Shown here in pieces: positions 6,845 through 19,669 of a DNA stretch of 32,682 nucleotides. The notes beneath the pieces were generated by a model that saw nothing but the letters and a program-made list of their open reading frames with translations, ran no database searches and was not told the origin of the DNA. This DNA is from Steroidobacteraceae bacterium. GTDB taxonomy: Bacteria; Pseudomonadota; Gammaproteobacteria; Steroidobacterales; Steroidobacteraceae. Positions within the stretch are counted from its first letter, which is position 1. Each line of letters begins with the position of its first letter. The DNA is taken from positions 1 through 32,682 of the forward strand of contig JAHCAN010000032.1 in NCBI GenBank assembly GCA_019634915.1. Direction: 5' to 3'. Both the position numbers and the translations under genes were made by a program.

Positions 6845-8035
6845 TCAGTTGGCAGGCGTGGCGGCAGTGGCGGCCGCCCAGGCCGTGTCGGTCAGCGTCA
6901 GGTCGAGCGAACCGGCGCGCACGTCGCTCGAGCCGAGGCTGAGCGAATTGCCGTACGGGTCGATCCTGAGCGTGAGGCCGGGCCCGAGCGCCGCATCGCT
7001 CGTGCCCCAGCTGAGCTGCGGCGTGCTGCCGCCGCGCACCGCGGTCGCCGGTCCGAAGCGTGCGATCGCCGCGCTGCGCGCCTGCTCGTAATCGAAGCGC
7101 GGCAGCACACTCTGGATGCGCACCTGGCGCACGATGCCGTCCTTGTCGTAGAACGCGCGCAGGCAGACGTCGCCCGGCACGGGCTCGCGGTCATGGCTCG
7201 CCGGCACGTAGATGCAGTCCATCAGGTCGAGCTCGATCGAGCCGGCAAAGCGCGGATCGCTGTCGGATCGCGGCCCGCGCGGCGTGCGCGTCGGCTTGCG
7301 GTACAGGCGCGTGATCGCCGCCTCCGTCTCGTCGGCCGACACGCCGACCCGCAGGCCGCCGGCATCGACGGCCAGTGGATTGAACGCGGTGGGCGCCGCG
7401 GCCGGGGCCGCCGTCAGATCGGGCGTCGCGAGCACACTGCCGTCGCCGTCGAGCACTTGCGTCGAGATCAGTTCGGCGCGCACCACGTACTGGCCGCTCA
7501 CGGCACCCGCCGGATCGCCGTCGCCGACGATGCGGAACTTCACCGGCGTCAGCACCGAGCGGCTGCCGTCGCGCATGATGCGCCGGTCGAACTCGCGCGC
7601 CTCCTCCTTCGGCATGCGGATCGCGCGCGCCTGCGCCGCGTTGGCGAACACCACCCGGTACTCCTGGCCGTTGAAGCGCACCGGCATGTAGGAACCCGGC
7701 TCGAAGATCGCGACCGAGAACTCGCCGCGGTCGTGGTCGTAGTCGCTGATCGAGTTCTGGATGTCGGTCTTGAACACGATCTGGTCGCTCGCCGCGTCGA
7801 ACACCGCACGCTCGCGCGCGATCTCCTGTTTCAGCACGTCGGGGCGGTCGAAGCCCGAAGCCTGCGAGACGACGCGGGATGCGGCCGCATAGCGATCGAA
7901 GTCGAAGGCCTTGCCGGCGAGCTTGTGGTAGGTGAGCGCGAGCTGTTCGGGATCGAAGTCCCGGCCGGCGGCGAGCGCGAGCGGCGCGAGCAGCAACAGC
8001 ACGCCCGTTCTGAACAGGGAATTGACGGTACTCAT
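6845..8035 (-). CDS. Exported protein, possibly DUF4852-like
   Basis: This 396-residue protein has an N-terminal signal peptide (MSTVNSLFRTG, a leucine-rich core, then ALAAG). It has no other membrane segment, so a periplasmic location is expected. The N-terminal half (LTYHKLAGKAFDFDRYAAAS and the segment after it) reminds me of DUF4852 proteins, but that link is from memory and weak. The C-terminal half contains the single cysteine pair region LDLMDCIYVPASHD...GDVCLRAFY and a final repeat-like section on conformation 'LRIDPYGNSL'. The start overlaps the stop of the upstream lipoprotein gene by four bases (ATGA). It is the third gene of the five-gene operon; no enzymatic motif is evident. Confidence 0.8.
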   Translation of the reverse strand: MSTVNSLFRTGVLLLLAPLALAAGRDFDPEQLALTYHKLAGKAFDFDRYAAASRVVSQASGFDRPDVLKQEIARERAVFDAASDQIVFKTDIQNSISDYDHDRGEFSVAIFEPGSYMPVRFNGQEYRVVFANAAQARAIRMPKEEAREFDRRIMRDGSRSVLTPVKFRIVGDGDPAGAVSGQYVVRAELISTQVLDGDGSVLATPDLTAAPAAAPTAFNPLAVDAGGLRVGVSADETEAAITRLYRKPTRTPRGPRSDSDPRFAGSIELDLMDCIYVPASHDREPVPGDVCLRAFYDKDGIVRQVRIQSVLPRFDYEQARSAAIARFGPATAVRGGSTPQLSWGTSDAALGPGLTLRIDPYGNSLSLGSSDVRAGSLDLTLTDTAWAAATAATPAN

Positions 8036-8433
8036 CGTTTCGCCTCCGGCGCTTCGTACTTGCGCAGCGGCCCGCGCGGGCCGCTCGAGAACACGAGGAT
8101 CGGCTGCGCGCCCTGCGCTTCGATGCGCAGCTGCAGGTCGCCGGCGAGCTTTGCCGAACTCAGCGCACCGTCGACTTTCGCGGTATCGAGGCGCGTGGTC
8201 GCGGTGTAGATCTCCTCGTCCTTCAGCACGAAGCGGTGCACGCCGTTCAGGAACGCGAGCACCTGCGCGTCGGGCGGCGAGGCCGGATCGATCATCCAGA
8301 CGTCACCGCGCGACGTCGGCAGGCTCGCCGCCGCGGGATTGGCCGCATCGCCCGGGGCGCCGCCGCCGCAGGCGGCGAGCACGGCCAGCAGCACCGCGGC
8401 CGCGAGGCGCAGGCCCGCAAGTCGCGCCCTCAT
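8032..8433 (-). CDS. Lipoprotein, unknown function
   Basis: This 133-residue protein has a lipobox near residue 22: MRARLAGLRL, a hydrophobic core, then LAVLAAC. It should be lipidated on that cysteine and anchored to a membrane after signal peptidase II cleavage. The mature part starts GGGAPGDAANPAAAS and carries a folded section (VWMIDPASPPDAQVLAFLNG and FVLKDEEIYTATTRLD). The start at 8433 was chosen because it supplies the signal peptide and overlaps the preceding stop by four bases (ATGA). A longer reading up to 8724 would run through the upstream gene and is rejected. Second gene of the operon; no family recognised. Confidence 0.8.
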   Translation of the reverse strand: MRARLAGLRLAAAVLLAVLAACGGGAPGDAANPAAASLPTSRGDVWMIDPASPPDAQVLAFLNGVHRFVLKDEEIYTATTRLDTAKVDGALSSAKLAGDLQLRIEAQGAQPILVFSSGPRGPLRKYEAPEAKR

Positions 8434-8690
8434 GACTTGCACCGGATTTCGACGACGTCCTTGTTGCAGCGGGTATCGCCGGTGAACTGCCCGGCCCCGC
8501 TCTGCGCGCACACGCCCTGCAGCATGCCGCGGCCGAGGCTGAACTTGTCCGGGTTCTTGAGCTCGGCGCTCATGTCCTTGTCTTCGAGGTCGTTGCAGGT
8601 CATCAGAAGCGGCGGCAGCTCGATCCACCGCCCCTGGTCGCAGGCTGCGACCGCACCACATGCGATCAGCAGTGCAAGGATGTTCTTCAT
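8430..8690 (-). CDS. Small lipoprotein, unknown function
   Basis: This 86-residue protein begins MKNILALLIACGAVAACDQG, a short lipoprotein signal with the lipidated cysteine at about residue 17. The small mature part contains four further cysteines (MTCNDLED, GVCAQSG, DTRCNKD, EIRCKS), suggesting one or two disulfides in the periplasm. The start at 8690 was preferred over 8759 because it provides the signal and follows a GGGGCC stretch. It is the first gene of the minus-strand operon. Its start lies about 32 bases downstream of the transcription start predicted from the promoter-like element at 8729-8756. No family recognised. Confidence 0.8.
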   Translation of the reverse strand: MKNILALLIACGAVAACDQGRWIELPPLLMTCNDLEDKDMSAELKNPDKFSLGRGMLQGVCAQSGAGQFTGDTRCNKDVVEIRCKS

Positions 8691-8728
8691 TGGCTGGCCC
8701 CCTGTGCCATGGCTTGCCCGACAAGGGG

Positions 8729-8756
8729 GAGACGCAGGCGGCGGCCGATCGTCAGG
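8729..8756 (-). promoter_or_regulatory. Candidate ECF promoter for the lipoprotein operon
   Basis: On the minus strand CCTGAC (8756-8751), 16 bases, then CGTCTC (8734-8729). The same two hexamers with the same 16-base spacing occur in the opposite orientation at 8772-8799. A CGTC-type -10 is common for ECF sigma factors, and the element lies at a suitable distance upstream of the start at 8690. Assignment to the sigma factor encoded next door is inference. Confidence 0.6.
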
Positions 8757-8771
8757 CACGGGCCGCGGATT

Positions 8772-8799
8772 CCTGACAGAGCCGCCCGATCGGCGTCTC
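8772..8799 (+). promoter_or_regulatory. Candidate ECF promoter for the sigma/anti-sigma/CHAT operon
   Basis: CCTGAC (8772-8777), 16 bases, then CGTCTC (8794-8799) on the plus strand. It is an exact bipartite match to the mirror-image element at 8729-8756. The -35-like parts face each other 15 bases apart. Transcription would begin near 8806, leaving a leader of about 48 bases before the sigma gene. This suggests autoregulation. Confidence 0.6.
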
Positions 8800-8853
8800 T
8801 ACAGGCATGCAGAAAGTTCACCATGACTCCGGTAGGCTGTACCGGGGGACAGA

Positions 8854-9462
8854 TTGGACAAGCTGGACTTCATCCGGGCCTGCCGCGAAGGTGGCGTCGC
8901 GCTCGAGCGGGCGCTGGTCGCGCTCGACCGCGAGCTGTTCGCCGGGCTCTACCGCGAATGCCGCCGCGCCGTGCGCGACGCCGCGGCCGCGCGCGACCTG
9001 GTCCAGGACACCTTCATCAAGGTCTGGCAGCGCTGCGCGACATTCCAGGGCGACTCGGAGCTGCGACCGTGGGTACGCGCCATTCTGCGCCACACGATGC
9101 TCGATGCGTTCCGCAGAGCCGAGAGCCGGGTCTCGCTCGACGACACGGCCGCGGGCACCGAGATCGAAGCGAGGATTGCCGAATTGTCGGCCGTGCAGGT
9201 CGCCGCACCGCACGATGAAGCGCACGCGCGACAGCTCGCCGAGATCTTCCAGCGAGGCTGGGCGCGGTTCGAACAGGACTGCCCCGCGCACGCGACCGTG
9301 ATCGTGTGGATCAGCGAAGACGGGCTCGACAATGCCGCCGTCGCGCAGCTTCTTGGCCGCACCCCGGGCGCCACCCGTGAATACATCTCCCAGTGCCGCA
9401 AGAAGCTGCGCGTGTATCTGGCCGACTGGTTCGAGCTGGCCTTCGGAGCCTCGCCGCCGTGA
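8854..9462 (+). CDS. ECF-type RNA polymerase sigma factor
   Basis: This 202-residue protein has the two-domain layout of ECF sigma factors. Region 2 covers about residues 27-90 (AAARDLVQDTFIKVWQRCAT and RPWVRAILRHTMLDAFRR). Region 4 covers about residues 140-192, with a helix-turn-helix at NAAVAQLLGRTPGATREYIS. It should direct RNA polymerase to a small set of promoters. The start is TTG at 8854, preceded by GGGGG at 8844-8848; no better in-frame ATG is present. The stop overlaps the next start (GTGA), so sigma and the membrane protein behind it are translationally coupled, as is usual for sigma/anti-sigma pairs. The probable target promoters lie in the upstream intergenic region. Confidence 0.92.
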   Translation: MDKLDFIRACREGGVALERALVALDRELFAGLYRECRRAVRDAAAARDLVQDTFIKVWQRCATFQGDSELRPWVRAILRHTMLDAFRRAESRVSLDDTAAGTEIEARIAELSAVQVAAPHDEAHARQLAEIFQRGWARFEQDCPAHATVIVWISEDGLDNAAVAQLLGRTPGATREYISQCRKKLRVYLADWFELAFGASPP

Positions 9463-10061
9463 CCGACGATTCGACGCTCGACGTCTGGTTCGACGCGCTG
9501 GCCGGCCGTGACACGAAGGGCGGTGCCGCCGCCAACGAGGCGCGCGCGCTGCGCGCTGCGTTGCACGGGCGCACCGCGACCGACGAGGTGAGCCTGCAGC
9601 GCGAGCTGGCGGCGAGCGCTGCGCACCGCGAGGCGCAGCTGCTCGCGGCGGCACGCCGTGATCCAATCGTCGGTCCGATGCTTGCGCGCGACACCGGCCG
9701 CCGCGCCTCCCCGCGTCGCGTCTGGGGCGCGCTGCTCGCCGCCGGCATCGCCGGCCTCGCGGTCGCGCTCGTGTGGACGCTGCGGCCCGCGACCGAGACG
9801 CCCGCCTACCGCGAGGTGCCCGATCAGGTGTACCGCATGGTCGCCGACGATCCGCGCGCGCTGCGAGACGAGCTCGCACGGGCCCTGCGTGCCGCCGGCA
9901 TCGAGGTCGTCAGTTACCAGCGCTTCGGCCGGGAGGGGCTCGACGCCGAGCTGCCGCGGCCGCTCACGCTGCCGGTACGCGACATCCTGCTGCGCTATCG
10001 CATCCCCGAACCCGCCGACGGCGTGCTGCGCGTCGAGATCGAAGCAGCGGCGCCGCCATGA
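9459..10061 (+). CDS. Single-pass membrane protein, putative anti-sigma factor
   Basis: This 200-residue protein starts at GTG within the GTGA overlap with the sigma stop. Residues 1-87 are hydrophilic and presumably cytoplasmic. One membrane helix spans about 88-107 (VWGALLAAGIAGLAVALVW), and about 93 residues follow on the periplasmic side. Position and topology match membrane anti-sigma factors. It has no cysteine, so it is not a zinc-binding (ZAS) anti-sigma, and I recognise no known anti-sigma domain. The role is therefore inferred from context. Its own stop overlaps the start of the CHAT protease gene by four bases, tying all three proteins together. The periplasmic tail is a candidate substrate or partner of that protease. 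Confidence 0.78.
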   Translation: MTDDSTLDVWFDALAGRDTKGGAAANEARALRAALHGRTATDEVSLQRELAASAAHREAQLLAAARRDPIVGPMLARDTGRRASPRRVWGALLAAGIAGLAVALVWTLRPATETPAYREVPDQVYRMVADDPRALRDELARALRAAGIEVVSYQRFGREGLDAELPRPLTLPVRDILLRYRIPEPADGVLRVEIEAAAPP

Positions 10062-13000
10062 CAGCGCGGCACGGCTTCGCGGGACTGCTGCTCGCCGCGC
10101 TCGCGATCACCGGTCGCGACGCCGGCGCGCTCGAGCTGCCATCGATCTGCGCGCAGCAGGCAGTGCCCGACGACGTCGGCGCACCGGTCGCCGAGCTGCG
10201 CGCGCGGGTCGATGCGATCGGCGAGAGCGAACCGATGAAGGCGGTGGCCATACTGTGCGCCACGATCCCGCGCGTCGCGCGCGAATACGGCGCCGACTCC
10301 GTCGAGCTCGCCTGGTGGGTACAGACGCTTGCGACACCCCTGATCGCCTACCGGGACGAGTTCACCGAGGCGATCCCGCTGCTCGAGTACGCGCGACCGA
10401 TCATCGAGCGTGAACTCGGCCTGCAAAGTGCGCAGGTCGCCGAGCTGCACGTCGCCTATGCCTGGATCGCGTATCGCCAGGGCCGGCTCGCGGCAGCCGG
10501 CGAGGAATGGCAGGCCGCGCTGCGCATCCGCGAGCACGTGCCGGGCGCGAAGCAGATCGAACTGCAGAAGGTACTGGTAGGCCTCGCGCAGGTACGCGTC
10601 TCGCAGCGCCGCTTCGCCGACGCGCGCGCGCTGCTCGAGCGCGCGCAGGGCATCCTCGCCGCCAACGGCGAAACGAAGAGCGCGGCGGCGGGCGCGATCG
10701 AGAACGCGCTGACCAACATCGCGTTGCGCGAGGAGGACTACCCGCGTGCGCGCCGGCACGCCGAGGCACAGCTCGCGATCGAGCTGGGGCTGCGCGCCGA
10801 ACGCGGCGCGGCCCAGCCGGTAACCGCCTGGCTGCTCTATGGCCAGGTGCTCGAAAAGCTCGATGAATACGAGCAGGCCGAGCACGCGATGCGCGAGGCG
10901 GTACGGCTCGCCGAAGCGACCGACGGGCCGCTGCAAAGGCATTACCTGCGGGCGCTGACCGTCCTCGGCGTGCTGCTGAACGCGCGCGGCAAGCCACAGG
11001 AGGCATTGCCCTTCGCCCGCCGCGCCGTCGAAGTCGCCACGCAGCAGCTCGGCACCGATGCGCCGAACCGGGTGAGCATGCTGCTGAGTCTCGCCGAGAT
11101 CGAACGCGTCCTCGGCGACCTGCCCGCATCGCAGACACTCTATGGTGAGGCGGGCCGGATCATCGCCGTGCACCCGGACGACGTCGAGCGCCAGGTGCGC
11201 GTCAACTACCACCGGGGCCTCGGCCTGCTGCAACAGTTGCTCGGCGCGACCGCCGATGCACGCGCAACCCTCACCCGCGGTCTCGAGATCGCCGGCGGCG
11301 GCGCCGACATGACGACGGAACGCGCCAGCGTGCTGCTGCTGCTCGCGCGCCTCAACGCCGATGACGATCCGATGCTTGCCCGCGCGCAGCTCGGCGAGGC
11401 ACTCGCGCTGTACGCCTCGCGCCTGCCCGCCGGGCATCCGACGCTGCTGCGCGTCGTCAACGAACTGTGCGCAATCGACGTGCGCACGACACCGGCCGAC
11501 GCGCCGAACTGCCGCGACGCGCAGCAGCGGCTCGAGGCGGCACGCGAAGTCGAGCCCGCGCTGCGCCACGCCGTCTACGCCAACGAAAGCGCCCTCGAGG
11601 AGGCGCGCGGCAATACCGCAAGCGCCTGGTCGCTCGCCGTGCGCGCGTTGTCCGCAGCCGCGACGCTCGGCACGCCGGATCCGGAATGGCAGGCCCAGTT
11701 CCGCCTCGCGCGACTGCTGCACGAGCGCGGCGACGACGCGCTCGCGATCTTCTTCGGCAAGCAGTCGATCGGCCGCGTCGAGGCCTTGCGCGCCGGGCTC
11801 AACGATGCCGACCGCTCGCCGCACGGCGGCTTCCTGCGCGACAAGGTCGGCGTCTACCGCGCGGTTGCCGACTGGCTGATGCAGACCGGACGCATGGACG
11901 AAGGACTGCAGGTTCTCGATCTGCTGAAGGCCGAAGAGCTGAATGATTTCGTGCCGCGCGCGGCCCCGGCGGCGCGACCCGGCACCGGCATCGCGCTGAC
12001 CGCCGCCGAGCAGCGGCTCTGGGCGCGCTACCTCGCCTCGCTGCGCACGGATTCCGCGACGGGCGCCGAGATCGACACCCTGGCCCGCCGCCGCGAGGCC
12101 GGACGCATCAGTCCGGAGGAGCGGCAGCGGCTCGGGCAGTTGCTCGCGCGCCAGCCCAGCGAGGAGGCGGCGCGGGCGAAGCGCATCGACGCGTTCATCG
12201 GCACCGCGACGGGCACGGCCGCACCGATTCCGGGCCGCGTGATCTCCACCGAGCGCCTCGCACGCGAACTCGAGCGCTATGGCGAGGACAGTGCAATCGG
12301 CGTGTACCTGCTGACCGACCATCACCTGCGGATACTGGTGGCCACACGCCAGGGCCAGACCGAACACCGCATCGACATCGAAGCGACGACGCTGCGCCGC
12401 CAGATCGGCGAGCTGCTCGATGCGATCGGCCGGCGCGAGGACGTACGGGCGCGCTCGAAGGCGCTGTACGACATCCTCGCGCGCCCGCTCGCCGAGGCCG
12501 CCCGCCGCGCCGGCGCGCACCGTCTGATCCTGTGGCCCGACGATGCACTGCGCTACGTGCCGTTCGCCGCGCTCCACGACGGCGAGCAGTACCTGATCGC
12601 CCGCTACGCGATCCAGCTGTATGCGGACGCCGCGCCGCACACCGCTTCCGGCGGCGCTCCGGACGAGCGCCGCGAGCGCGCCGCGCCGACACCGATGACG
12701 GTGCGGGGGCTCGGCGTCACACGGGCCGTGGCGGGCTACAGCGCGCTGCCGGCGGTCGCCGACGAGCTCTGTTATGTCGTGCGCGGGCCGATCACCGGGC
12801 TTACCTCACCCGGCGAGGCCTGCGACGGGCCGACGCGCGGTTCCGGGCCTGCGACCGGACGCGGCGCGCTGCCGGGCGAAGGCTATGCCGATGCGGCGTT
12901 CACCGAAGCGCGGCTCGATTCGCTGCTGGAGGCGCCGCGGGATTTCTCGGTGCTGCACCTCGGCACCCACTTCAGCCTGCGGCCTGGCAACGCGATGCGC

Positions 13001-13369
13001 TCCTGGCTGCTGCTCGGCGACGGCGAGCAGCTCACGCTCGACAAGATCAGCACGCTCGACTTCTCCGGCATCGCATTGACGACCTTGTCAGGCTGCCAGA
13101 CCGGCATGGGCGGCGCGGTCACCGCCGACGGCCGCGAGATCGAAGGCCTCAGCGCGATCGTGCAGCGGCGCGGCGCGCGCAGCGTGATCGCGAGCCTGTG
13201 GCGCGTCGAGGATCGCAGCACCGCAAGCCTGATGCGCAAGATGTACGACGAGATGTCGACGCTGCATGCCCGCGGCGGCAGCACCGCGCGCGCACTGCAG
13301 CTCGCGCAGCTGTCCCAGCTCGACCGTCACCCGTACTACTGGGCCGGCTTCCTGCTGACGAGCCGCTAG
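10058..13369 (+). CDS. Secreted TPR-CHAT caspase-like protease
   Basis: This 1103-residue protein starts at the ATG in an ATGA overlap. Residues 1-25 form a signal peptide (MTARHGFAGLLLAALAITG...), so a periplasmic location is expected. Residues of about 70-560 contain many TPR-like helical pairs (EYEQAEHAMREAVRLAEA, GKPQEALPFARRAVEVATQQ). From about 730 to the end is a CHAT domain of clan CD, related to caspases and separase. The catalytic histidine is probably H971 in VLHLGTHFSLRPGN and the cysteine C1013 in TLSGCQTG. REIEGLSAIVQRRGARSVIA and SLWRVED complete the fold. TPR-CHAT proteins are known as signal-activated proteases. Coupling to a sigma/anti-sigma-like pair suggests it senses an envelope signal and cleaves the anti-sigma; that is inference. 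Confidence 0.9.
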   Translation: MTARHGFAGLLLAALAITGRDAGALELPSICAQQAVPDDVGAPVAELRARVDAIGESEPMKAVAILCATIPRVAREYGADSVELAWWVQTLATPLIAYRDEFTEAIPLLEYARPIIERELGLQSAQVAELHVAYAWIAYRQGRLAAAGEEWQAALRIREHVPGAKQIELQKVLVGLAQVRVSQRRFADARALLERAQGILAANGETKSAAAGAIENALTNIALREEDYPRARRHAEAQLAIELGLRAERGAAQPVTAWLLYGQVLEKLDEYEQAEHAMREAVRLAEATDGPLQRHYLRALTVLGVLLNARGKPQEALPFARRAVEVATQQLGTDAPNRVSMLLSLAEIERVLGDLPASQTLYGEAGRIIAVHPDDVERQVRVNYHRGLGLLQQLLGATADARATLTRGLEIAGGGADMTTERASVLLLLARLNADDDPMLARAQLGEALALYASRLPAGHPTLLRVVNELCAIDVRTTPADAPNCRDAQQRLEAAREVEPALRHAVYANESALEEARGNTASAWSLAVRALSAAATLGTPDPEWQAQFRLARLLHERGDDALAIFFGKQSIGRVEALRAGLNDADRSPHGGFLRDKVGVYRAVADWLMQTGRMDEGLQVLDLLKAEELNDFVPRAAPAARPGTGIALTAAEQRLWARYLASLRTDSATGAEIDTLARRREAGRISPEERQRLGQLLARQPSEEAARAKRIDAFIGTATGTAAPIPGRVISTERLARELERYGEDSAIGVYLLTDHHLRILVATRQGQTEHRIDIEATTLRRQIGELLDAIGRREDVRARSKALYDILARPLAEAARRAGAHRLILWPDDALRYVPFAALHDGEQYLIARYAIQLYADAAPHTASGGAPDERRERAAPTPMTVRGLGVTRAVAGYSALPAVADELCYVVRGPITGLTSPGEACDGPTRGSGPATGRGALPGEGYADAAFTEARLDSLLEAPRDFSVLHLGTHFSLRPGNAMRSWLLLGDGEQLTLDKISTLDFSGIALTTLSGCQTGMGGAVTADGREIEGLSAIVQRRGARSVIASLWRVEDRSTASLMRKMYDEMSTLHARGGSTARALQLAQLSQLDRHPYYWAGFLLTSR

Positions 13370-16798: not shown

Positions 16799-19669
16799 AT
16801 GGAACATCTGCCTGCATCTTTCGGCGGCCTCGCTGCCGTCGCCTTCCTGCTCGGCCTAAAGCACGGCTTCGACGCCGACCACCTCGCCACCATCGACGGC
16901 CTGACCCGCGTCAACACCCGGGCCGGCAGTGTGTTCGCCCGCTGGTGCGGCGCGCTGTTCTCGCTCGGCCACGGCGCCGTCGTGATCGCGATCGCGCTGC
17001 TCGTCAGCTCCGCGGTCGCGCGCTGGCAGACTCCCGGCTGGCTCGAGACCACCGGCGTCGTGATCTCGATCTTCTTCCTCACACTGCTCGGCGTGCTGAA
17101 CCTGTACGCCGTATGGCGCGCAGCGCCGGACGAAGTGGTGACGCCGATCGGCATCAAGGGTCGCTTCCTCGGCGCACTCGGCCGTGCGCGCAATCCGTTC
17201 GTCGTCGCGCTGGTCGGCGCCCTCTTCGCGCTCTCGTTCGACACGATCAGTCAGGCGGCCTTCTTCGCACTCGCGGCGGGCCAGTACGGTGGCCCGGTCT
17301 ACGCGGCCTCGCTCGGCGCGCTGTTCGTGCTCGGCATGCTGGTCACCGACGGCGCGAACGGACTGTGGATCTCGCGCCTGATCCTGCGCGCCGACGAGAC
17401 CGCGCGCATCGCCTCGCGCGTGATGAGCCTCGCGGTCGCGTGCGTCAGCCTGCTGGTCGCCGGCTTCAGTACCGCGAAGCTGCTGCTGCCGCGCGTCGAC
17501 GGCTGGGCAGAGGGCAAGGAGCTGCTGTTCGGTGCCACCGTCGTCGTCGTGGTGCTCGTCGGCTTCGTGTGGGGCCGCTCGATCGCCGCCGCCCGCGCCG
17601 CGCGCACGCCACGCGGTGGCAGCGCAGTCGCGGCGGTCGCAGCGGTCGCGTTGACGGCGCTGATCGGCGTCGACGCCCGCGCCGGCGGCATTACCGGCGC
17701 CGATCTCGAGGAAGTCACCGTGCGCGCCAACCGCCTGCCGCTCACCGGCCTGCCACGTGCGGCGAGCGAAGGCACGGTGCTCGGCGAGCAGCTCGAGTAC
17801 CGGCCGCTGCTGCGGGTCGGCGAGCTGCTCGAGACCGTGCCGGGCCTGGTCGTCACGCAGCACACCGGCGACGGCAAGGCCAACCAGTACTTCCTGCGCG
17901 GCTTCAATCTCGATCACGGCACCGATTTCGCGACGCGCGTCGAGGGCATGCCGGTGAACATGCCGACGCACGGCCACGGCCAGGGCTACATGGACGTGAA
18001 TTTCGTGATCCCGGAGCTCGTCGAGCGCATCGTCTACCGCAAGGGCACCTACTACGCCGACCTCGGCAACTTCTCCGCGGTCGGCGCGGCCGAGCTGCAG
18101 TATGTCGATGCGGTACGGCCGTTCATCGCCGTGAGCGGCGGCGAGGACAACTATGTGCGCGCCCTCGCGGCCGGCTCGATGCCGCTCGCCGGTGGCTCGC
18201 TGCTCGCGGGCTTCGAATACGATCACACCGACGGCCCATGGGTGCTGCCCGAGGATCTGACGAAGGTGAATGGCGTGCTGCGCTGGTCGCGCCGTGGCGA
18301 AACCTCGGGCATCGCGGTCGACCTGATGGCCTACGACGGCGAGTGGACCTCGACCGACCAGATTCCGCGGCGCGCCGTCGAGAGCGGCGCGCTCGACCGC
18401 TACGGCTACATCGATCCGACCGCCGGCGGCGAATCGCACCGCTACTCGCTGTCGGCGGCCGGCTATCGCGCCTACGGCCCGGGGCGGCTCGATTTCAATG
18501 CCTACGCGATCGACTACCGGCTGCAGCTGTACTCGAACTTCACCTATGCGCTCGATCCGGACCATGGCGATCAGTTCGAACAGTTCGACGACCGGCGCGT
18601 CTACGGCGCCGCGCTCGCCTGGTCGCAGCCGTTCGCGTTCGGCGCCGGCGGCAGCGTGTGGCGGATCGGCGCCGACATCCGCGCGGACGACATCTCACCG
18701 GTCGGTCTCTACCTGACGACCGCGCGCGCGCGCCACGCGACGATCCGCGAAGATCGCGTCGAGCAGACCCTCGCGAGCGCCTGGACCGCCGTCGCGACGC
18801 AGTGGACGCCGTGGCTGCGCAGCGAGCTCGGCCTGCGCGCCGATCGCCTCGGCTACGACGTCGCCAGTGATCGGGCCGTGAACTCGGGCTCGGGCCACGA
18901 CACGCTCGCGAGCCCGAAAGGCTCGCTCGCGCTCGGCCCCTGGCGCGACACCGAGTTCTTCGTCGCCGCGGGCCGCGGTTTCCACAGCAACGACGTGCGC
19001 GGCGCGACGATCCGCGTCGACCCGGTGGACGGCGTCACGCCGGTCGATCGCGTCACGCCGCTCGCCCGCGCCGACGGCTCCGAGATCGGCCTGCGCACCG
19101 CGCTCGTGCCACGCACGCAGCTCTCGGTGGCGCTCTGGAAGCTCGATCTCGACTCCGAGCTGCTGTTCATCGGCGATGGCGGCACGACCGAGGCCACGCG
19201 GCCGAGCCGGCGCGAAGGCGTGGAACTGAGCGTCTACTCACGACCGCGCGACTGGCTGATCGTCGACGCAGACTACGCGGCCTCGAAGGCACGCTTCCGC
19301 GACCTCGATCCCGCCGGCGATCGCATCCCGGGAGCCGTCGAGCGGGTCGCCTCACTCGGCATCACGCTGCAGACACCCGCGGGCTGGTTCGGCGGCGCGC
19401 GCCTGCGCTATCTCGGCCCCGCGGCGCTGCTCGAGGACGACAGCGTGCGCGCGCCGAGCTCGACGCTCGTGAATCTCGAGGCCGGCCGGCGCCTGGGCGA
19501 TCACTGGCGGGTCTCGCTGCAGCTGTTCAATGCCTTCGATCGCAAGGTGAACGACATCACCTACTACTACGAATCGCAGCTGCCCGGCGAAGCCGCTCCG
19601 GTCGAGGATCTGCATTTCCACCCGGCCGAACCACGTACGCTGCGTGGCACCGTGCACTACAGCTTCTGA
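16799..19669 (+). CDS. Fused NiCoT nickel/cobalt permease and TonB-dependent receptor
   Basis: A single 956-codon frame encodes two transport proteins. Residues 1-262 are a NiCoT-type permease with about seven membrane helices, the signature LKHGFDADHLATIDGLTR at 20-37, ALSFDTISQAAFF and FVLGMLVTDGANGLW. Residues 266-295 look like a signal peptide: arginines 266, 269 and 272, a hydrophobic core at 275-291, then DARA before GG. From 296 there is a complete TonB-dependent receptor: EEVTVRANRLP, a plug (YFLRGFNLDHGTDFATRVEG, MPTHGHGQGYMDVNFVIPEL) and a barrel ending in HYSF. No in-frame stop and no ATG or GTG separates the halves. Signal peptidase cleavage near 295 could release the receptor to the outer membrane. 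The NikR box upstream implies repression by nickel. Confidence 0.9.
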   Translation: MEHLPASFGGLAAVAFLLGLKHGFDADHLATIDGLTRVNTRAGSVFARWCGALFSLGHGAVVIAIALLVSSAVARWQTPGWLETTGVVISIFFLTLLGVLNLYAVWRAAPDEVVTPIGIKGRFLGALGRARNPFVVALVGALFALSFDTISQAAFFALAAGQYGGPVYAASLGALFVLGMLVTDGANGLWISRLILRADETARIASRVMSLAVACVSLLVAGFSTAKLLLPRVDGWAEGKELLFGATVVVVVLVGFVWGRSIAAARAARTPRGGSAVAAVAAVALTALIGVDARAGGITGADLEEVTVRANRLPLTGLPRAASEGTVLGEQLEYRPLLRVGELLETVPGLVVTQHTGDGKANQYFLRGFNLDHGTDFATRVEGMPVNMPTHGHGQGYMDVNFVIPELVERIVYRKGTYYADLGNFSAVGAAELQYVDAVRPFIAVSGGEDNYVRALAAGSMPLAGGSLLAGFEYDHTDGPWVLPEDLTKVNGVLRWSRRGETSGIAVDLMAYDGEWTSTDQIPRRAVESGALDRYGYIDPTAGGESHRYSLSAAGYRAYGPGRLDFNAYAIDYRLQLYSNFTYALDPDHGDQFEQFDDRRVYGAALAWSQPFAFGAGGSVWRIGADIRADDISPVGLYLTTARARHATIREDRVEQTLASAWTAVATQWTPWLRSELGLRADRLGYDVASDRAVNSGSGHDTLASPKGSLALGPWRDTEFFVAAGRGFHSNDVRGATIRVDPVDGVTPVDRVTPLARADGSEIGLRTALVPRTQLSVALWKLDLDSELLFIGDGGTTEATRPSRREGVELSVYSRPRDWLIVDADYAASKARFRDLDPAGDRIPGAVERVASLGITLQTPAGWFGGARLRYLGPAALLEDDSVRAPSSTLVNLEAGRRLGDHWRVSLQLFNAFDRKVNDITYYYESQLPGEAAPVEDLHFHPAEPRTLRGTVHYSF

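Follow-up and report, generated by a model that had tools for sequence, protein, structure and literature searches.

The intergenic region between two divergent operons of a Steroidobacteraceae bacterium carries two copies of one bipartite element, each pointing outward at the operon beside it. We consider it highly probable that the two are independent promoters and that both are recognised by the ECF sigma factor whose gene lies at positions 8854-9462 of the window (the whole stretch of 32,682 nucleotides analysed here). The sigma factor would thereby regulate its own synthesis and control an operon for exported proteins, under restraint by an anti-sigma-like protein. What can be read directly from the DNA is the pair of elements with its spacing and conservation, and the way the operons are laid out.

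The first-pass annotation had described two copies of CCTGAC-N16-CGTCTC, and both are exact, at 8772-8799 on the plus strand and at 8756-8729 on the minus strand. In the rightward copy, the putative promoter of the sigma operon, the -35 element CCTGAC (8772-8777) is followed after a 16-base spacer by the -10 element CGTCT (8794-8798); in the leftward copy, the putative promoter of the divergent exported-protein operon (8729-8756), the corresponding elements lie at 8756-8751 and 8734-8730. Transcription is predicted to start near 8805 on the plus strand and near 8723 on the minus strand. Of the -10 hexamer originally proposed, CGTCTC, the first five bases stand, but the last does not: position 8799 varies, and C, T, A or G is found there in relatives. 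The corrected element is CCTGAC(A/G)-N15-CGTCT. Between the spacers of the two window copies, 16 bases each, only 4 positions are identical, and no sigma-70-like promoter was found in 8600-8900. In G000, the genome that contains the window (2.78 Mb, 78.6% complete), there are four exact matches to CCTGAC-N16-CGTCTC and none to the reversed-pattern control. Two of the four make up the twin pair; another, on contig C57, immediately precedes an exported-protein gene, and the last, on C15, is apparently coding. When the 166-nt intergenic region was put through 20,000 dinucleotide shuffles, 66 of them yielded two exact outward copies (6+6 bases, spacer 15-19). The original judgement that the arrangement is unlikely by chance therefore holds in the sense that such a pair is uncommon, but the pair by itself is not decisive; it is conservation that decides.

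Every place at which a clear sigma orthologue was found was counted as an orthologous locus, and none was dropped. Three of them (L005, L006 and L007, with at least 57% sigma identity) were among 80 loci returned from genome contigs. A search of 396 genomes of the order, in which at most eight candidates were scored per genome, contributed all seven of its matches at E <= 1e-25. As L005 is G380 and L007 is G402, the set represents eight species (G000, G380, G318, G270, G014, G010, G402 and G061). A class-wide draw of 369 genomes, searched at E <= 1e-20, returned no further sigma orthologue, its one match being the window's own genome. In this sample of few orthologues, the three named ones of which are metagenome bins, both outward sites are kept in all eight species and 16 of 16 sites fit CCTGAC-R-N15-C(G/A)TCT. 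Position by position, CCTGAC is found at 16/16 sites, the next base is A or G at 16/16 and the -10 element is CGTCT at 15/16, the sole deviation being CATCT in G402. The spacer is 16 bases at every pair site although 14-18 were permitted, and its sequence has diverged (mean identity 36% on the sigma side and 40% on the divergent side). The first-pass annotation had staked its reading on a comparison of this region in relatives and on conservation of the elements upstream of homologous operons; with both sites and the 16-base spacer constant in eight of eight species, and a ninth, distant locus to add to them, that expectation was borne out.

These observations bear on two other explanations. 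One is that the elements are identical by chance, or through a recent local duplication, and have no function. The frequency of comparable pairs in the shuffles speaks for it, as do background matches, a bare motif match being present in 46 of 60 family genomes. It is nonetheless refuted because both elements are conserved: the two cores are kept in eight species around diverged spacers and recur in a distant family, which leaves this explanation with a negligible probability. The other takes the inverted copies for a palindromic operator, bound as a unit between the operons by one dimeric regulator. The orientation of the copies and their proximity in the window, where 15 nt separate the two -35 elements, would suit such an operator. 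Across the eight species, however, the gap measures 9, 15, 15, 15, 16, 19, 51 and 109 nt, and therefore the elements are separate promoters rather than one fixed operator. The variable gap, which reaches 256 nt at the ninth locus, largely refutes the operator model, against which single oriented copies upstream of other genes also speak; we regard it as very improbable.

The ninth locus emerged from a profile search with the anti-sigma-like protein. In 392 genomes of the order, eight matches were obtained, six of them in known sigma carriers and two in new genomes, G252 and G004; G402 carries an anti-sigma-like gene yet is absent among the eight. G252 belongs to another family of the order and, having been found through the anti-sigma profile, played no part in the definition of the motif. 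Its sigma factor is 30% identical to that of the window and falls under the E <= 1e-25 orthologue cut-off, and the locus also has an anti-sigma-like gene. There, an outward pair reads CCTGACA-N15-CGTC(A/G), one site lying upstream of the sigma gene and the other upstream of an exported-protein gene, with 152 nt from the -10 element to the start codon. The product of the third gene of the sigma operon combines Peptidase_C14, TPR and PPC domains with a signal-like segment at its N-terminus. A further Peptidase_C14 protein, its start also signal-like, is encoded second in the divergent operon (L221 8376-9998; the stretch analysed ends within this frame), and the His motif of GHG type and the Cys motif D(A/S)C are kept in both proteins. 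G004 holds a stretch that resembles the C-terminal domain of the anti-sigma-like protein only (L220 4459-4737). It was rejected as a further member of the module, there being no sigma gene and no motif at the fragment.

As a negative control we used the pattern C(C/T)TGAC-N15-17-CGTC, which detects the pair in 8/9 clade loci and misses G402 (CATCT). At 77 other sigma-like loci (L008-L084) it gave no outward pair within 300 nt. Eight places with distant sigma factors (at most 39% identity) were also considered as orthologues and rejected, none having an outward pair; the genes downstream of these sigma genes, where readable, encode another small membrane or zinc-type protein.

The first gene of the rightward operon (8854-9462, plus strand) has a TTG start and encodes a protein of 202 amino acids. 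It matches Pfam Sigma70_r2 (3.8e-13) and, above cut-off and over residues 32-189, the sigma70-ECF model TIGR02937. The length of about 200 residues and the presence of regions 2 and 4 only are those of an ECF sigma factor; a separate Pfam match to region 4 was not found. In the leader, a possible hairpin (8827-8847, plus strand) with an 8-bp stem and a 5-nt loop holds the ribosome-binding site in its 3' arm. Its energy is not exceptional (z -1.19) and makes it weak on its own; three congeners (G380, G318 and G270) clearly have a similar one, and G014 a weaker one. Farther along the window, a single frame (16799-19669) matches a NicO nickel transporter (10-239) together with the plug and barrel of a TonB-dependent receptor (327-911), and is either a real fusion or the product of a wrong start or frame.

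The second gene of the operon (9459-10061, plus strand) overlaps the sigma gene by 4 nt in six of the seven loci that hold both genes whole and by 8 nt in G014. It encodes the anti-sigma-like protein, 200 amino acids long, with a helical N-terminal part bearing the signature W-(F/L/V)-(D/E)-x-L-x-G, one transmembrane helix at about 87-107 and a conserved C-terminal domain that presumably lies beyond the membrane. Structure prediction gives this domain as a beta-alpha-beta-beta-alpha-beta unit (block pLDDT 85-97); elsewhere the model is weak, with N-terminal helices of low confidence and a whole-chain pTM of 0.41. Up to an E-value of 1, three orthologues matched no anti-sigma family in Pfam, where one chance-level match was seen in one of them, and the N-terminal 110 residues had no match in NCBIfam. 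A fold search with the model returned nothing at E <= 0.001 and only weak glyoxalase-like matches; a profile search with the alignment against solved chains gave only chance-like helical matches. Class I anti-sigma domains are treated in PMC7406223. The gene layout fits a membrane anti-sigma, with a predicted sigma-binding part, one transmembrane helix and an outer domain encoded within a sigma operon.

Third in the operon is a gene (10058-13369, plus strand) for a TPR-CHAT protein of the caspase clan, 1103 amino acids long (CHAT, 8.5e-51), which overlaps the anti-sigma-like gene by 4 nt in 7/7 loci. Its N-terminus appears by eye to be signal-peptide-like. The putative catalytic residues, His967/His971 and Cys1013, fall in the motifs H(L/I)GTH and LS(G/A)C, which recur in all seven loci with a long enough contig. 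The His and Cys are invariant in the six complete proteins and are predicted to form the His-Cys dyad characteristic of the clan. Besides Cys1013, these six proteins share invariant cysteines at 31/67, 471/485 and 905/922; the pairs fit disulfides and therefore argue for export. A predicted exported CHAT protein is the third gene product in 7/8 orthologous loci, the contig of G318 ending within the second gene. CHAT matches occur in 4 of 60 family genomes and are not exclusive to sigma carriers. A more distant CHAT relative is encoded in G025, a genome without a sigma match (C187:4023-4811, L219; 3.5e-56). The occurrence of two caspase families, CHAT and Peptidase_C14, in the same slot suggests that the protease matters to the circuit.

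The leftward operon consists of genes whose products were assigned by eye, as were all exported proteins and lipoproteins (from their N-termini) and the regulon sites described below. On the minus strand, it begins with a small lipoprotein of 85 amino acids with a lipobox (8430-8687), followed, with a 4-nt overlap, by a second lipoprotein-like gene (8032-8433). Next come P0006 (6845-8035) and P0007 (5623-6831), both with a signal-peptide-like start and the latter with an internal duplication, and P0008 (4861-5622), a membrane protein. A relative of P0008 in G061, 35% identical, has its own motif copy about 207 nt upstream. The divergent side opens with the lipoprotein gene in five sigma-carrying congeners and elsewhere with other genes for exported or membrane proteins. 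In G010, which represents another genus, a DUF4282 protein comes first and relatives of P0006 (23%, 194 residues) and P0007 (57%) are present.

Two of the putative target genes track the sigma factor. Of 100 family genomes drawn, five have the small lipoprotein, each of them a sigma carrier; G010 lacks it. The exported protein first noted on C57 was found in four of the 100, again all sigma carriers, and bears TPRs in G014; the site precedes its gene in 4/4 carriers, in G318 as CGTCA. Two of the six sigma carriers drawn, G380 (89% complete) and G010, lack the C57-type protein, and the sigma-less congeners G034 and G051 have neither protein. In G000 itself, the C57-type protein (L110, site 82179) is apparently shortened, its resemblance to the G014 protein ending, by eye, near residue 260.

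A genome-wide scan for the motif had been put forward by the first-pass annotation as a way to list the regulon. Beyond the pair, the eight genomes contain 18 exact CCTGAC-N16-CGTCT sites. Eight of these lie, by eye, upstream of a gene for an exported protein or a lipoprotein, and with the one before the P0008 relative, nine of 18 are at genes of exported or membrane type; the other nine are apparently coding or without an exported gene. One of these other nine, a G010 site (2178009), stands before a possible membrane-protein start but was not scored as a target. Apart from the G402 promoter, none of eight CATCT sites examined (of 10) precedes an exported gene. In G402, the CHAT gene is closely followed by a motif copy, and beyond that copy lies the gene of an exported PASTA- and RCC1-repeat protein (L007 7275-9350). 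Motif counts in 60 family genomes were rejected as a test of the link between sigma factor and motif: they were uninformative, the counts of sigma-less genomes (0-5) overlapping those of carriers. An automatic signal-peptide filter, a weak test that overlooked several sites counted by eye, selected 4/15 motif loci from sigma-bearing genomes versus 2/27 from the family draw. The 27 controls came from genomes without a sigma match in 26 cases and from G000 in one, and one locus per list (L169 and L163) had been dropped with the site not at the expected place.

One could also envision that the sites are real ECF promoters read by another ECF sigma factor, the local one being merely a target. Two sites alone cannot identify their reader, and the family has other ECF sigma factors. 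However, this ECF-type bipartite site, for which promoter activity is predicted, stands upstream of its own sigma gene, and the pair directly upstream of it, in all eight orthologues and in G252. Moreover, the lipoprotein (5/100) and the C57-type protein (4/100) are confined to the sigma-bearing genomes of the family draw. We therefore judge another reader unlikely. Co-occurrence, orientation and spacing support the initial proposal that the encoded ECF sigma drives both its own operon and the lipoprotein operon, and we infer from them that it probably reads the sites.

In the circuit that we favor, the anti-sigma-like protein with its single transmembrane helix would hold the sigma factor in the resting state, and its conserved C-terminal domain would sense or receive a signal. 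Once free, the sigma factor would transcribe its own operon (sigma, anti-sigma-like membrane protein and exported CHAT protein) and the divergent operon for lipoproteins and exported or membrane proteins. Both the role of the second gene product as the anti-sigma of this sigma factor and the direction of control are inferred here. It is tempting to speculate further that the exported caspase-clan protein is a site-1 protease: on an envelope signal it might cut the outer domain of the anti-sigma and free the sigma factor, and the twin promoters would in turn boost production of the sigma factor, the anti-sigma, the protease and the exported effectors. We offer this last step tentatively, as a possibility that we think somewhat doubtful.

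The kind of circuit, autoregulation by an ECF sigma factor with a membrane anti-sigma, is already known, and the present module is a variant of it. Like the RpoE-RseA and SigW-RsiW modules, it has a bipartite promoter with a 16-nt spacer before the sigma gene, a protein with one transmembrane helix encoded next and exported proteins as targets. Unlike in these modules, the -35 element is CCTGAC(A/G), whereas that of RpoE/SigW-type ECF promoters is of the GGAAC type; the anti-sigma-like protein falls outside Pfam, and the operon includes an exported caspase-clan gene. That anti-sigma factors can be controlled by regulated proteolysis is well known, RseA and RsiW being discussed as examples in PMC10028731. 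The same text describes Craspase: its TPR-CHAT protease Csx29 acts together with the CRISPR effector Cas7-11 and cleaves Csx30, which inhibits an ECF-like sigma factor (PMC10028731). In both systems a TPR-CHAT protein is encoded together with an ECF sigma factor and a candidate for its inhibitor, and the locus itself contains motif copies (PMC10028731); in contrast to Craspase, the CHAT protein here looks exported and the candidate inhibitor spans the membrane. PADLOC-DB models matched no CRISPR family among eight window proteins, Cas7-11 and Csx30 of type III-E (Craspase) included. ECF54, whose model member is from Geodermatophilus, is described in PMC8999054 as having CHAT, subtilase and carboxypeptidase neighbours and no anti-sigma; control by proteolysis is proposed. 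A CHAT gene lies in the neighbourhood there as well (PMC8999054), whereas here the gene between those for sigma and CHAT encodes a conserved membrane protein, and the lineage is that of the Gammaproteobacteria; the putative anti-sigma gene speaks against ECF54 membership. None of the Craspase, ECF54 and RseA/RsiW systems is the present module, and among the matches listed in a limited literature search there was no description of the promoter, or of a sigma/anti-sigma pair accompanied by an exported CHAT protein. What the module adds is a promoter with a precise consensus, CCTGAC-R-N15-CGTCT, and a first outline of the regulon of an uncharacterised ECF sigma factor. The repeated link to exported caspase-clan proteins raises the question of whether bacterial caspase relatives serve as envelope proteases in transmembrane sigma signalling. 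If the site-1 protease reading were true, the module would be a non-CRISPR, periplasmic counterpart of the Csx29-Csx30-CASP-sigma system.
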